From: an uncultured Angelakisella sp.
GTDB lineage: Bacteria > Bacillota > Clostridia > Oscillospirales > Ruminococcaceae
Assembly (NCBI GenBank): GCA_904420255.1
Contig: CAJFUT010000216.1
Span: forward strand, 1-15,382
Reading direction: 5' to 3'
DNA: 15,382 bases
Made by a program: the position numbers and the translations under genes
Notes under the pieces: generated by a model
Told to the model about the DNA's origin: nothing
The model's input: only the letters and a program-made list of their open reading frames with translations
Database searches by the model: none
Shown here: positions 13,320 through 15,382 of the stretch, one piece after another
Layout of the letters: the number at the start of each line of letters is the position of its first letter
How positions within the stretch are numbered: position 1 is the stretch's first letter

Positions 13320-13811
13320 GATGAAGTGAGGCAATGGGTTTTTACCATCTGCTGCGGGACGCTGCTCTGCGGGGTGGTGTCGGTGCTGCTTCCCGGGAAG
13401 GGCACCGAGCGGCTGATGAGCATGATCCTGGGGCTGTTTATGCTCTGCTGCTTCCTGCTGCCGGCGGGGATCAGCCTGGAGCTGCCGGAGATCGACCTTC
13501 CGGCGGCGGAATCAGCCAGGAGCCAGGCCGCCGGGGAGCTGACCGATTATTTCCTCCAGGATACCCTCCGGCGTTCGGAGGAGGAGCTGGCGGATGCGGC
13601 GGCCAAAGAACTGCGGCAATATGGCATAAATGAGAAAGACATCCAAATATACATAGAAACAGACGAGTCAGAGGACGGCAGCGTCCTGGGGCTTACCGTG
13701 AACATCACCCTGCCGGAGGAGGCGAGGGAGCATCACCGGGAGCTTGTTAGGATCCTGGAATATGAGCTGGGCGCCCAGGTCCGGCTGGAATATGGAGGGG
13801 AAGGGGCATGA
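13317..13811 (+). CDS. spoIIIAF: Stage III sporulation protein SpoIIIAF
   Basis: From the TTG at 13317 the product has 164 residues. Two hydrophobic helices (about residues 9-26 and 36-53, the second LMSMILGLFMLCCFLLPAGI) are followed by a soluble domain of alpha/beta character. This domain ends EHHRELVRILEYELGAQVRLEY and corresponds to the ring-building fold reported for SpoIIIAF. The start was chosen by the Shine-Dalgarno at 13301-13308. Between about 13618 and 13675 codon use changes to AT-rich triplets (three ATA codons, ACA, TCA), unlike the surrounding GC-ending codons. A promoter-like element lies there. The stop overlaps the spoIIIAG ATG (ATGA). Confidence 0.9.
   Translation: MDEVRQWVFTICCGTLLCGVVSVLLPGKGTERLMSMILGLFMLCCFLLPAGISLELPEIDLPAAESARSQAAGELTDYFLQDTLRRSEEELADAAAKELRQYGINEKDIQIYIETDESEDGSVLGLTVNITLPEEAREHHRELVRILEYELGAQVRLEYGGEGA
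13623..13651 (+). promoter_or_regulatory. Candidate internal sigma-E-like promoter inside spoIIIAF
   Basis: GGCATAAA at 13623-13630 differs by one base from the -35-like box before spoIIIAA (GTCATAAA). After 13 bp, CAAATATA at 13644-13651 matches the spoIIIAA -10-like CATATATT at 6 of 8 positions. A second possible -10, CATAGAAA, is at 13652-13659. The site lies about 150 nt before spoIIIAG. An internal promoter serving the last genes is known in the B. subtilis spoIIIA locus. Use here is inferred. Confidence 0.35.
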
Positions 13812-14371
13812 AGGAGCCTCTTGTACTGAAATTCGGGAAATACAAAATCAGCCTTCAGACCCTGGTGTTCCTTTTGGGGATCACGGGGATCCTTCTCATC
13901 GGCCTTTCCACCTTTCTCCCGGAAAGGGCGGAGGAGCCGGCGGGGAGCGGGGTGCTGGAAACCGACGCCAGGGCCTACGCCTCCGAGCTGGAAAGCCGCC
14001 TGCAGTCCATTCTGGAGCAGATGGAGGGAGTGGGTCAGGCCCGGGTGATGGTGACCCTGGAAAACGGGTATCAAAAGGTATACGCCAAATCGGAAAAGGT
14101 GAACAACGACGTTTTGGAGGACATCCGGGCCGAGGATGAGCGGAAGACCCAGGAAAAACAGGTGACTGAGCAGACCTATATCCTCATCGACGGCGCCGGA
14201 GGCGAGCAGCCCCTTGTGACGGCGGAGCTGGAGCCCCAGGTAAAGGGGGTCGTGGTGGTTTGCGAGGGAGGGGACCAGCCTGATGTGGTGGGAAAGGTGG
14301 TGGACGCGGTGAAGGTGGCCCTGGACATCTCCTCAACCCGCATCTCGGTTTCCAAACTGACCGTAAAATAA
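13808..14371 (+). CDS. spoIIIAG: Stage III sporulation protein SpoIIIAG
   Basis: The 187-residue single-pass protein forms a large ring in the space between mother cell and forespore. A short basic head is followed by one membrane helix at residues 17-37 (QTLVFLLGITGILLIGLSTF). The outer domain begins with a helix (YASELESRLQSILEQMEGVG). It then has strands ARVMVTLENGYQKVYAK, an inserted charged region with EDERKTQEKQ, and the ring-building motif ending KGVVVVCEGGDQPDVVGKVVDAVKVAL. It is somewhat shorter than the B. subtilis protein (about 229). It starts in an ATGA overlap with spoIIIAF. A 39-nt gap leads to spoIIIAH. Confidence 0.95.
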   Translation: MKEPLVLKFGKYKISLQTLVFLLGITGILLIGLSTFLPERAEEPAGSGVLETDARAYASELESRLQSILEQMEGVGQARVMVTLENGYQKVYAKSEKVNNDVLEDIRAEDERKTQEKQVTEQTYILIDGAGGEQPLVTAELEPQVKGVVVVCEGGDQPDVVGKVVDAVKVALDISSTRISVSKLTVK

Positions 14372-14410: not shown

Positions 14411-14950
14411 ATGAAAATGAATATGATCATCAGCAAAAAGCACATCGTCCTATCGGCCCTGGTGCTGGCGCTCAGCGTCGCGGTTTATCTGAACTGGGAA
14501 TATGTCAAGACAAACGGGGACAGCTTTGAAAGCACCAGCAAGATCGCCGTCAGCGGCGAGGTGGCGGAGGATCCCGCCGCCGATGAAACAGCGGCCTATG
14601 GGGAAGCCTATTTTGCCGAGGCGAAGCTCTCCCGCACCAAATCCCGGGATGAGGCGGCCGACGCCCTGAAATATATGCTGGAGGACGCCAACCTCACCAC
14701 CGATCAGATGACCGAACTGACCCTCCAGGCGGCCGCCATCGCGGAAGCCATTGAGGTGGAGGGGAAAATCGAAAACCTCATCAAGGCCAAGGGCTTTGAG
14801 GATTGCATGGTCTACCTGGAGGACGACAAGATCGACGTGCTGGTGAAGTGCGACGGGATGACCGACAGCGAGGCCGCCCAGATCAAGGACGTCATTCTGG
14901 GTGAGGTGGATGTGGAGGATAAAAATATTTCCATTATCGAAATCAAATAG
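14411..14950 (+). CDS. spoIIIAH: Stage III sporulation protein SpoIIIAH
   Basis: The 179-residue mother-cell membrane protein pairs with forespore SpoIIQ across the septum. One membrane helix (about residues 11-28) follows a short basic head. An acidic linker and a long helix (YFAEAKLSRTKSRDEAADALKY, shown here only as EAKLSRTKSRDEAADALK) lead to the compact C-terminal ring-building domain. That domain has EGKIENLIKAKGFEDCMVYL and DKIDVLVK, related in fold to the EscJ/PrgK ring proteins of type III secretion. The ATG at 14411 has TTGGAGGG at 14393-14400. The TTG at 14393 lies inside that site and is rejected. An ATG at 14417 is also possible. This is the last spoIIIA gene; the structured repeat region follows 16 nt later. 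Confidence 0.95.
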   Translation: MKMNMIISKKHIVLSALVLALSVAVYLNWEYVKTNGDSFESTSKIAVSGEVAEDPAADETAAYGEAYFAEAKLSRTKSRDEAADALKYMLEDANLTTDQMTELTLQAAAIAEAIEVEGKIENLIKAKGFEDCMVYLEDDKIDVLVKCDGMTDSEAAQIKDVILGEVDVEDKNISIIEIK

Positions 14951-14951
14951 G

Positions 14952-14979
14952 TTGTACTGGTTTGAAAATGTGGTATAAT
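14952..14979 (+). promoter_or_regulatory. Possible extended -10 promoter entering the repeat region
   Basis: TGGTATAAT at 14971-14979 is a perfect TGn-TATAAT extended -10. TTGTAC at 14952-14957 is a partial -35 (TTG conserved) at 16-bp spacing. The -10 lies inside the left arm of a perfect 19-bp palindrome, so it may simply be part of the repeat. If active, it would transcribe the structured repeats and the Asp23-like gene. Confidence 0.35.
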
Positions 14980-15007
14980 AGCCTCAAAGAGGCTATTATA
15001 CCACATT
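14967..15007. repeat. Perfect 19-bp inverted repeat with 3-nt loop
   Basis: Bases 14967-14985 and 14989-15007 are exact reverse complements around AAA. Because of the symmetry both strands carry TGGTATAATAGCC. This is the best-preserved of three copies of a palindromic core; the others are at 15087-15114 and 15200-15219. There is no T run right after the stem, so a simple terminator role for spoIIIA is not obvious, although GTTTT follows. Confidence 0.85.
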
Positions 15008-15016
15008 GTTTTAAAA

Positions 15017-15059
15017 GCCCTTTTCCTCGTCCCCTGCGGGGACAACCGGAAAAGATGGC
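15017..15059. ncRNA. Two-part hairpin of repeat unit A, candidate structured RNA element
   Basis: An outer stem GCC/GGC (15017-15019 with 15057-15059) is followed by a two-base AT bulge on the 3' side. A 7-bp stem comes next (15020-15026 with 15048-15054). Then comes an asymmetric internal loop, TC (15027-15028) against AACC (15044-15047). A 6-bp stem follows (15029-15034 with 15038-15043), with loop TGC. Unit B holds the same design with different paired bases. Which strand is transcribed is not known. Confidence 0.5.
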
Positions 15060-15092
15060 CCATACCACAACCGCTTTGCGCTTGTGGTATGG
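15060..15092. repeat. Inverted repeat, second hairpin of unit A
   Basis: CCATACCACAA (15060-15070) pairs exactly with TTGTGGTATGG (15082-15092). Inside, after one C-C mismatch, CGC pairs with GCG around TTT. The right arm also forms the left arm of the next palindrome (15087-15114), so the two cannot form together. Confidence 0.7.
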
Positions 15093-15114
15093 TAGCCTCA
15101 ACGGGCTATTATAC
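15087..15114. repeat. Second copy of the palindromic core
   Basis: GTATGGTAGCC (15087-15097) pairs with GGCTATTATAC (15104-15114) over all 11 positions if two adjacent G-T pairs are allowed, with loop TCAACG. It is a diverged copy of the perfect palindrome at 14967-15007. As DNA it has two mismatches, while as + strand RNA the helix is complete. Confidence 0.65.
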
Positions 15115-15126
15115 TCTGATTTCAAA

Positions 15127-15169
15127 GCCGTTTTTCTCCCCGGCTGTACCGGGAACCGAAAAACATGGC
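15127..15169. ncRNA. Two-part hairpin of repeat unit B, covarying with unit A
   Basis: It has the same plan and total length as 15017-15059. GCC/GGC (15127-15129 with 15167-15169) comes first, then the AT bulge, then a 7-bp stem (15130-15136 with 15158-15164). The internal loop is TC (15137-15138) against AACC (15154-15157), followed by a 5-bp stem (15139-15143 with 15149-15153) and loop CTGTA. Pair 15030-15064 positions aside, the first pair of the 7-bp stem is G-C here and C-G in unit A, and the sixth is T-A here and C-G in unit A. Confidence 0.5.
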
Positions 15170-15199
15170 GGATAATCCCATTCGCGCTTGGCGCTCATG

Positions 15200-15219
15200 A
15201 ATAGCCTCAACGGGCTATT
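15200..15219. repeat. Third, shortened copy of the palindromic core
   Basis: AATAGCC (15200-15206) pairs with GGCTATT (15213-15219) around TCAACG. The right side continues as TATACCA, like the first copy, but the left side has lost the matching bases, so only 7 bp remain. Confidence 0.6.
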
Positions 15220-15297
15220 ATACCATTTTATTTTAAAAGACCCGGGGTTCGCTTTGGGCGGGCCCACCCCGCGAAGTGGGAAGCAGTTGTGATGATC

Positions 15298-15313
15298 CGC
15301 GCGATTTTGCGCG
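15298..15313 (+). repeat. Small hairpin in the leader of the Asp23-like gene
   Basis: CGCGC (15298-15302) pairs with GCGCG (15309-15313) around a 6-nt loop GATTTT. It ends 11 nt before the GGAGGT ribosome-binding site (15325-15330). The stretch 15241-15280 before it can form several competing GC-rich stems (for example CGGGGT with ACCCCG, or CCCAC with GTGGG). No clear -35/-10 pair was found in 15241-15338. Confidence 0.4.
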
Positions 15314-15338
15314 ATGCTGAAGCTGGAGGTACAACCGA

Positions 15339-15382
15339 ATGTCTGAACAGAACTATGTTTCCAACGCCGGAAGCCTGAAAAT
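15339..15382 (+). CDS. Probable Asp23/Gls24 family protein, first 14 codons (3' end outside window)
   Basis: The ATG at 15339 has GGAGGT at 15325-15330, eight bases upstream. Only 14 residues are visible, MSEQNYVSNAGSLK, with the next codon starting AT (Ile or Met). The segment NAGSLK(I) resembles the conserved start of Asp23/Gls24 (YqhY-like) proteins, where Gly-Ser-(Leu/Ile)-Lys-Ile opens the domain. An Asp23-like gene close downstream of spoIIIAH is a common Firmicutes order. Both arguments are short or contextual, so the call is provisional. Confidence 0.6.
   Translation, partial: MSEQNYVSNAGSLK

Follow-up and report, generated by a model that had tools for sequence, protein, structure and literature searches.

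Comparison of copies indicates that the two 43-nt hairpins toward the end of the window, by which we mean the whole 15,382-nt stretch of DNA analyzed here, form the central module (B) of an ~110-bp unit made up of palindrome A, hairpin B, and palindrome C. We consider it likely that this cassette is a non-autonomous, short interspersed DNA element of the BOX/MITE kind, placed at promoter -10 boxes and probably recognized through its folded B. The dispersal of the cassette, its predicted placement at -10 boxes, the relatives with a simple promoter, the changes in its arrays, and the constraint on B are all read from sequence. An earlier, sequence-only reading of the two hairpins overlooked that each is flanked by two further palindromes of its unit, and that the element spans 14967-15225.

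The window is the entire contig C216 of a fragmented genome assembly (1.98 Mb, 331 contigs, 81% complete), and the array lies between spoIIIAH and an asp23-type gene, both on the + strand. It reads A-B-C-A-B-C plus a partial A, that is, two units plus a third, partial A (14967-15225), with the following parts and neighbors:

14417..14950, + strand: upstream gene spoIIIAH, co-directional (PF12685, E 1.8e-38)
14952..14957, + strand: predicted -35 hexamer TTGTAC, 16 nt upstream of the -10 box, matching the consensus at just 3/6 letters
14967..15007, + strand: palindrome A1, with perfect 19-bp arms (14967-14985 and 14989-15007)
14971..14980, + strand: target T, TGGTATAATA, a predicted extended -10 box within the left arm of palindrome A1
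15008..15016, + strand: AT-rich linker 1
15017..15059, + strand: hairpin B1, 43 nt, subfamily CTTTTCC/GGAAAAG
15060..15092, + strand: palindrome C1, with an inverted T copy in its left arm and a right arm that overlaps A2
15085..15114, + strand: palindrome A2, which opens the second unit (15085-15169)
15115..15126, + strand: AT-rich linker 2
15127..15169, + strand: hairpin B2, 43 nt, subfamily GTTTTTC/GAAAAAC
15170..15204, + strand: module C2, degenerate, its right arm without part of T (read by eye against other copies)
15200..15225, + strand: partial third palindrome A3, without B
15339..15382, + strand: start of downstream gene asp23 (PF03780, E 3.9e-25), the rest of which is on contig C317 (L020)

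Compared side by side with other copies, palindrome A in the window reads TGGTATAATAGCCTC-AAA-GAGGCTATTATACCA. The place of the -35 hexamer is occupied by TTGTAC in five of nine congeners at this site, by TTGTTT in three, and by TTGCAC in one; a stricter, simple promoter scan lists no promoter in 14900-15382, the window's TTGTAC included. Farther upstream, among the spoIIIA genes, an ORF at 13808-14371 has no Pfam match and by position may be spoIIIAG.

The case made by the sequence-only reading depended on the existence of further copies, and these occur at many loci of the window's own genome and in other genomes, with the loops kept. BLAST with the spacer recovers about two dozen copies in the window's own assembly, and a model of A plus B (R1) matches at least 18 times there; several of the own-genome copies lie at contig ends, and copy number is probably underestimated because the assembly breaks at copies. 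Loci L021 and L022 (contigs C38 and C312) are apparently the two flanks, left and right, of a single cassette locus. Across the bacterial order to which Oscillospiraceae belongs, R1 finds matches in 32 of 245 genomes, representing 20 of 127 genera and 8 families, and a separate search found the cassette in 10 of 61 genomes, the window's own included; at E 1e-5, G042 has 14 copies, G066 6, G085 10, and G129 9. The exact B pattern is present in at least 117 stretches of GTDB genomes, and the 80 stretches listed all carry names from Clostridia or its subgroups, mostly Oscillospiraceae, Ruminococcaceae, Oscillibacter, and unclassified Clostridia, with Pseudoflavonifractor capillosus An386a as a cultured carrier; the pattern was not found in viral_contigs. 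A B-only model (R2), built without stems like those of L358 (described below), matches 4 of 391 genomes of the class, all inside the order, and its lack of matches in class genomes outside the order is that of a narrow model, which missed the R1-positive G024 and G117. The number of units varies even at one orthologous site, with 3, 2, 2, and 1 units in four species. For the counts that follow, 158 hits in one search were reduced to 115 distinct rows by dropping hits below 42 bits (many of them the palindrome on the opposite strand), two cut-off copies, and repeats, and 87 of 89 hits in a second search were used; the combined 203 rows, one of them entered twice, gave 193 units after removal of duplicates, a step in which some arrays lost identical units as well (L054 has three). 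Among the literature matches listed, none describes this element, which is not proof of absence.

Main-type cassettes typically sit at predicted -10 boxes, in sense orientation and with the box left in place, the left arm of A being an extended -10 box (TGnTATAATA). A count of -35 positions could draw on 117 of the 170 first units, since upstream DNA was too short in 4 and a -10-like start was missing in 49. Of the 117, 45 have a TTG 17 nt upstream of TATAAT, 12 have it at 16 nt, and 6 at 18 nt, and every other spacing from 8 to 29 nt holds 0-5 units; the 16-18 nt triplet thus accounts for 63/117, compared with 2-6 for five other spacing triplets. The same spacing is found in 47 of the 87 first units that were not pattern-selected. 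Inner units of arrays are without a -35, with TTG in 0, 0, and 1 of 23 at 16, 17, and 18 nt. Sixteen arrays of the window's own genome have enough upstream DNA to be read individually: the -35 is a perfect TTGACA at L003 and L011, begins with TTG at seven more (L001, L004, L005, L008, L012, L015, and L024), and is TTTACA at L014 and TTTATA at L019. The best hexamer is without TTG at 16-18 nt in 7 of the 16, and a convincing -35 was not seen at L002, L009, L010, L013, and L021.

Gene orientation was determined by scoring reading frames with the window genes as the training set. Downstream of 116 main-type arrays, the gene is on the same strand in 89 cases, opposite in 3, and ambiguous in 10, with no coding frame in 5 and too little sequence in 9, so that 89/92 decided cases are co-directional. 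This count supersedes two cruder ones (37 same, 12 opposite, 64 overlapping an open frame, and 3 none for the same 116 arrays; and 20 same, 3 opposite, 83 ambiguous, and 10 too short). Upstream genes are mixed (38 same strand, 49 opposite). The genes that follow the copies (rpmH, polA, dnaN, and others) are named by eye from their sequences, and spoIIIAH and asp23 are assigned by Pfam.

The 49 of 170 first units with no -10-like start have the same kind of B, and the non-main types, delimited by a slightly different cut, comprise 54 arrays with the downstream gene on the same strand in 27 and opposite in 16. One subfamily has the outer palindrome TATTATTTCCGAATT (L174, L187, L225, L228, and L238, in Oscillibacter-like genomes); several copies occur in one genome, by eye not at promoters. 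In another (L205, L214, L222, L229, and L235), B is again of the same kind, the C palindrome holds a Shine-Dalgarno-like AAAGGA, and the cassette ends in AAAGGAATGGTCATAATTATG or a near-variant directly before the start codon; this subfamily may target ribosome-binding sites.

Minimum-energy folding of the + strand reproduces the design first described for the two window hairpins, both of them 43 nt with a GCC/GGC base, an AT bulge, a 7-bp stem, a TC/AACC internal loop, and an apical stem (B1, -20.3 kcal/mol, z -3.1, 1/200 shuffles as good; B2, -16.6 kcal/mol, z -2.6, 3/200 shuffles as good), and the compensated base differences between their stems are real. The minus-strand folds are slightly more stable (-22.9 for B1 and -20.5 for B2). 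An alignment of 68 of 82 distinct B sequences, with 11 truncated or degenerate and 3 near-duplicate ones left out, extends to homologues the covariation that the two window copies had hinted at: it is strong, and the loops are nearly constant. The 11 tested pairs are formed in 95.1% of cells, 8 of the 11 with changes on both sides, and the covariation score is 0.370; shuffles give 0.092, with 0/500 reaching the observed value, and slid partners give no more than 0.068. At least 4 pairs form in the apical stem of 49/56 distinct versions (shuffles: mean 12.9, maximum 22), the internal loop is TC/AACC in 58/68 sequences, and the bulge is AT in 59/68. A different set of stems belongs to an A-B-C unit at the spoIIIAH-asp23 promoter of another genus (L358; G029:C1:2018455-2018483 and downstream), which surfaced only via a palindrome pattern search; with a stem of TCCGCC/GGCGGA and a base of GGCA/TGCC, it has wholly different stems yet the same loops as the window's B. 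Variants of B tend to be common to copies of one genome, which suggests separate expansions. Reduced hairpins in L009, L076, L359, and L363 lack the internal loop and retain the AT bulge. The window has no match at or above the gathering score of any Rfam family, in agreement with the earlier reading, which recognized no named RNA family; the four sub-threshold matches there include, as the best, one to a snoRNA family (E 0.076), and the three matches obtained from ten other loci (T-box, tRNA) all fall in L222, outside the element.

The sequence-only reading took these features as the mark of selection on RNA structure. The covarying stems and nearly constant loops stand in favor of that idea, but as a complete account it is less well supported: the hairpins are part of a DNA repeat scattered through genomes, and some sites in relatives are without a copy. 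Carried further, it would make B a portable RNA regulator, a protein- or ligand-binding hairpin in the mRNA 5' leader that is selected for its effect on the gene and dispersed only secondarily, which we regard as improbable, though by no means negligible. Such a regulator would fit the 89/92 decided cases in which the cassette is sense to the gene that follows it, the covarying stems with nearly constant TC/AACC and AT loops, and L358, where the spoIIIAH-asp23 promoter of another genus carries the same design built from entirely unlike stems. However, the asymmetry of T already yields sense orientation, the functions of the downstream genes (read by eye) are unrelated, no Rfam family matches, and tandem arrays, solo A palindromes, and close relatives without the cassette all speak against it. 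A strand test for selection at the RNA level is mixed. A parse of all 68 B rows gives more G.T than A.C for the apical stem (9 to 3) and, by a small margin, for the base (8 to 6). G.T is not in excess in the cleaner count of 59 ungapped rows (7 to 11), in the lower stem (3 to 16 in the 68-row parse, a count that is partly misparsed), or in the palindrome arms (16 to 20 in A and 22 to 26 in C), and the result speaks neither for nor against the + strand RNA as the molecule under selection.

The order of parts in a unit is T-tipA-T'-linker-B-T'-tipC-T, where T is TGnTATAATA and T' its inverted copy, and the right arm of palindrome C continues into the A of the next unit. The ends of the cassette are therefore direct repeats of T; the inverted copies are internal, and there are no terminal inverted repeats. 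Within each of the palindromes A and C, the two arms covary while the loop varies. Where T positions deviate, pairing is kept in 38/45 cells of A and 104/125 of C, counts that are biased toward pairing because the arms had been found as best palindromes, and the match extends to letters private to one locus (L117, L170, and L002). At L086, relatives without the cassette have TGGTACAATA, and both inverted arms in G042 are GTAC, matching the site-private letter. At L021/L022 the A arm tracks the site (TTATTTTACC for GGTAAAATAA) and the C arm retains the common letters, a pattern better explained, for C at any rate, by subsequent correction within A than by copying at the moment of insertion.

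Orthologous sites in relatives give a view of the DNA with and without the cassette. Within the genus of G042 (five genomes, G042 included), at least one relative is without it at 7/10 loci (L083, L084, L085, L086, L087, L088, and L090), L085 having a decayed copy in G085 and none in G066 and G129. All three relatives recovered for L042 have the cassette there (3, 2, and 1 units; the own copy has 2), and the single ortholog recovered for L089 is filled. The site of L091 is filled in G066 and holds only a C-like hairpin in G085, and the more distant G102 has a simple promoter at this place. In a clean site pair, TGATATAATACC becomes TGATATAATA...TGATATAATACC, with 10 bp common to both ends; the ends share 12 bp at L083 and 16 bp at L086. 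Measured by the longest shared block, the duplication is at least 10 bp in 3/9 site pairs (10, 12, and 16), and the low values of the other six (7, 2, 1, -5, -6, and -9) can be ascribed to one T having changed or to a longer block elsewhere.

In the window's genus, 13 loci were searched for cassette-free orthologs. The rpmH promoter is without the cassette, with TTGACA in place, in 4/4 congeners inspected (matches in G002, G007, and G008 lie outside this count), and the congeners recovered for L008 and L022 are likewise without it; at L007, a polA-type site, the cassette is present in G004 too, and no ortholog was recovered in this genus for L003, L004, and L013; the remaining loci were too ambiguous to enter these counts. 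None of the nine congeners has an intact B at the window site itself: G002, G005, and G008 have the promoter without the palindrome, four (G001, G003, G004, and G006) have palindrome A alone, G009 has A followed by other sequence, and G007 has another hairpin. This last (L342) is a different, terminator-like hairpin, GAGAAAAAGCC...GGCTTTTTCTC, right after the -10 box. The solitary A could have been left behind when two A copies recombined, or could represent an earlier stage, and A may predate B and C at this site; a lone palindrome A is also present in the window's own genome (L362). Since repeats of T flank the cassette, cassette-free sites could also stem from precise deletion, and the weightier evidence of copying is the spread of the cassette over loci and genera that are unrelated.

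The sequence-only reading had also proposed a palindromic element copied while folded, which fits the outer palindromes, with their co-varying arms and variable loops, but fails to explain the constant loops of B. On a broader form of this proposal, no dedicated enzyme would be needed: replication template switching between short identical -10 boxes would spread the cassette and also make palindromes A and C. We think this unlikely. The target is indeed identical to the flanking repeat T, palindrome A occurs alone in 4/9 congeners at the window site and at L362, and no enzyme was found among Y1_Tnp, RVT_1, and DDE_Tnp_1. Template switching is also a published route to new stems and double changes, and the hairpins described there resemble A and C, whose arms track each other as reverse complements even at the locus-private letters of L117, L170, and L002; B differs from them in being dispersed with nearly constant loops (PMC8794818). 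Template switching leaves that near constancy of the B loops and bulge across 8 families unexplained, however, and a homology of ten bases is short for copying so frequent.

The searches for an enzyme covered three Pfam families. Y1_Tnp (PF01797) is absent from 10/17 carrier genomes, several of them incomplete assemblies and four of them the g34 genomes G042, G066, G085, and G129; it is above cut-off in 6/17 and below cut-off in the window's own genome, where the single match is a weak remnant of an IS200-like transposase gene at a contig start (L052, G000:C105) with no cassette copy in the adjoining 700 bases read. RVT_1 is absent from 7/10 carriers and DDE_Tnp_1 from 7/7, in each case including four carrier genomes of one genus. 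In the one pair of copies inspected for this, 2.6 kb apart (G141:C101), there is no autonomous copy in between, each copy preceding a different open frame on the same strand.

Dispersed extragenic hairpins with internal mismatches, arrays, and subfamilies, together with Y1_Tnp over cut-off in 6 of 17 carriers, recall REP/BIME elements that are mobilized by a RAYT or by a different IS200/IS605 (Y1) transposase (PMC2817692), but we find this very improbable as an explanation of the cassette: the four g34 genomes and six other carriers have no Y1_Tnp, the GT(A/G)G head is absent before B in 24 aligned copies and replaced by an AT-rich linker, and clean sites have a direct repeat of ~10 bp, whereas the family is described as making no larger duplications (PMC2817692). 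That the hairpins are transcription terminators or attenuators at gene borders, with A stopping transcripts that enter from the upstream gene, is scarcely credible: they are stable and intergenic, at least five T follow within 12 nt of A in 11/114 main-type units and within 11 nt of C in 8/119, and seven T follow the solo A in congeners G001, G003, G004, and G006, but a T run follows B in 0/139 units, a terminator scan lists none in 14900-15382, and main-type copies precede genes and begin at the -10 box.

We return to the reading of the cassette as a BOX/MITE-like element, for which known repeats offer partial parallels. The BOX elements of Streptococcus pneumoniae, short modular repeats (A, B, and C), vary in module number, are predicted to form stem-loop RNA, affect downstream genes, and are described as mobile parasitic entities (PMC3049150). 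The cassette is likewise modular, with 1 to 3 units at one orthologous site, a likeness in described layout. It differs in that the whole A-B-C unit is repeated, where in BOX it is B alone, in that it lies at the -10 box upstream of genes, where BOX is overrepresented between convergent genes (PMC3049150), and in its lack of terminal inverted repeats. With MITEs the cassette shares its short length (a unit of ~110 bp), absence of coding capacity, and many copies, but not their terminal inverted repeats, the lack of which also sets it apart from the Correia elements of Neisseria. Correia and other promoter-bearing MITEs are similarly short, non-autonomous, promoter-linked, and often just upstream of genes; Correia brings its own promoters, in contrast to the cassette, which lies on the -10 box of an existing promoter and repeats that box (PMC10969869).

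Under the mobile-element reading, the cassette would insert in trans at a -10 box and duplicate ~10 bp, by means of an enzyme that would recognize the folded DNA of B, with its constant loops, either single-stranded or as a cruciform. With the left T still in use as the -10 box, transcripts would begin within A and carry the remainder of the cassette as a 5' untranslated leader. The repeats of T would permit both tandem arrays and loss down to a lone A, and template switching inside each palindrome would keep the arms of A and C paired. A more specific version, which we consider rather doubtful, is an element that targets housekeeping -10 boxes via folded B, possibly on the melted strand of the open promoter, and that writes inverted copies of the target into its own flanks, giving locus-specific arms while the promoter stays usable; its enzyme would lie outside Y1, RVT_1, and DDE_Tnp_1.

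Insertions into the promoters of essential genes should usually do harm, and we propose that the promoters of rpmH, polA, and dnaN (by-eye names) tolerate the cassette because the left T still works as a -10 box. If this is correct, the cassette would illustrate how repeats come to occupy promoters like that of rpmH, namely by landing on the -10 box, repeating it, and preserving the distance to the -35. Many gene leaders in these bacteria would then share one structured hairpin, which would bear on promoter annotation, the mapping of transcript starts, and genome assembly. Because B has nearly constant loops whereas A and C have variable loops and paired arms, the contrast between them lends itself to a natural test of whether selection or template switching causes covariation.
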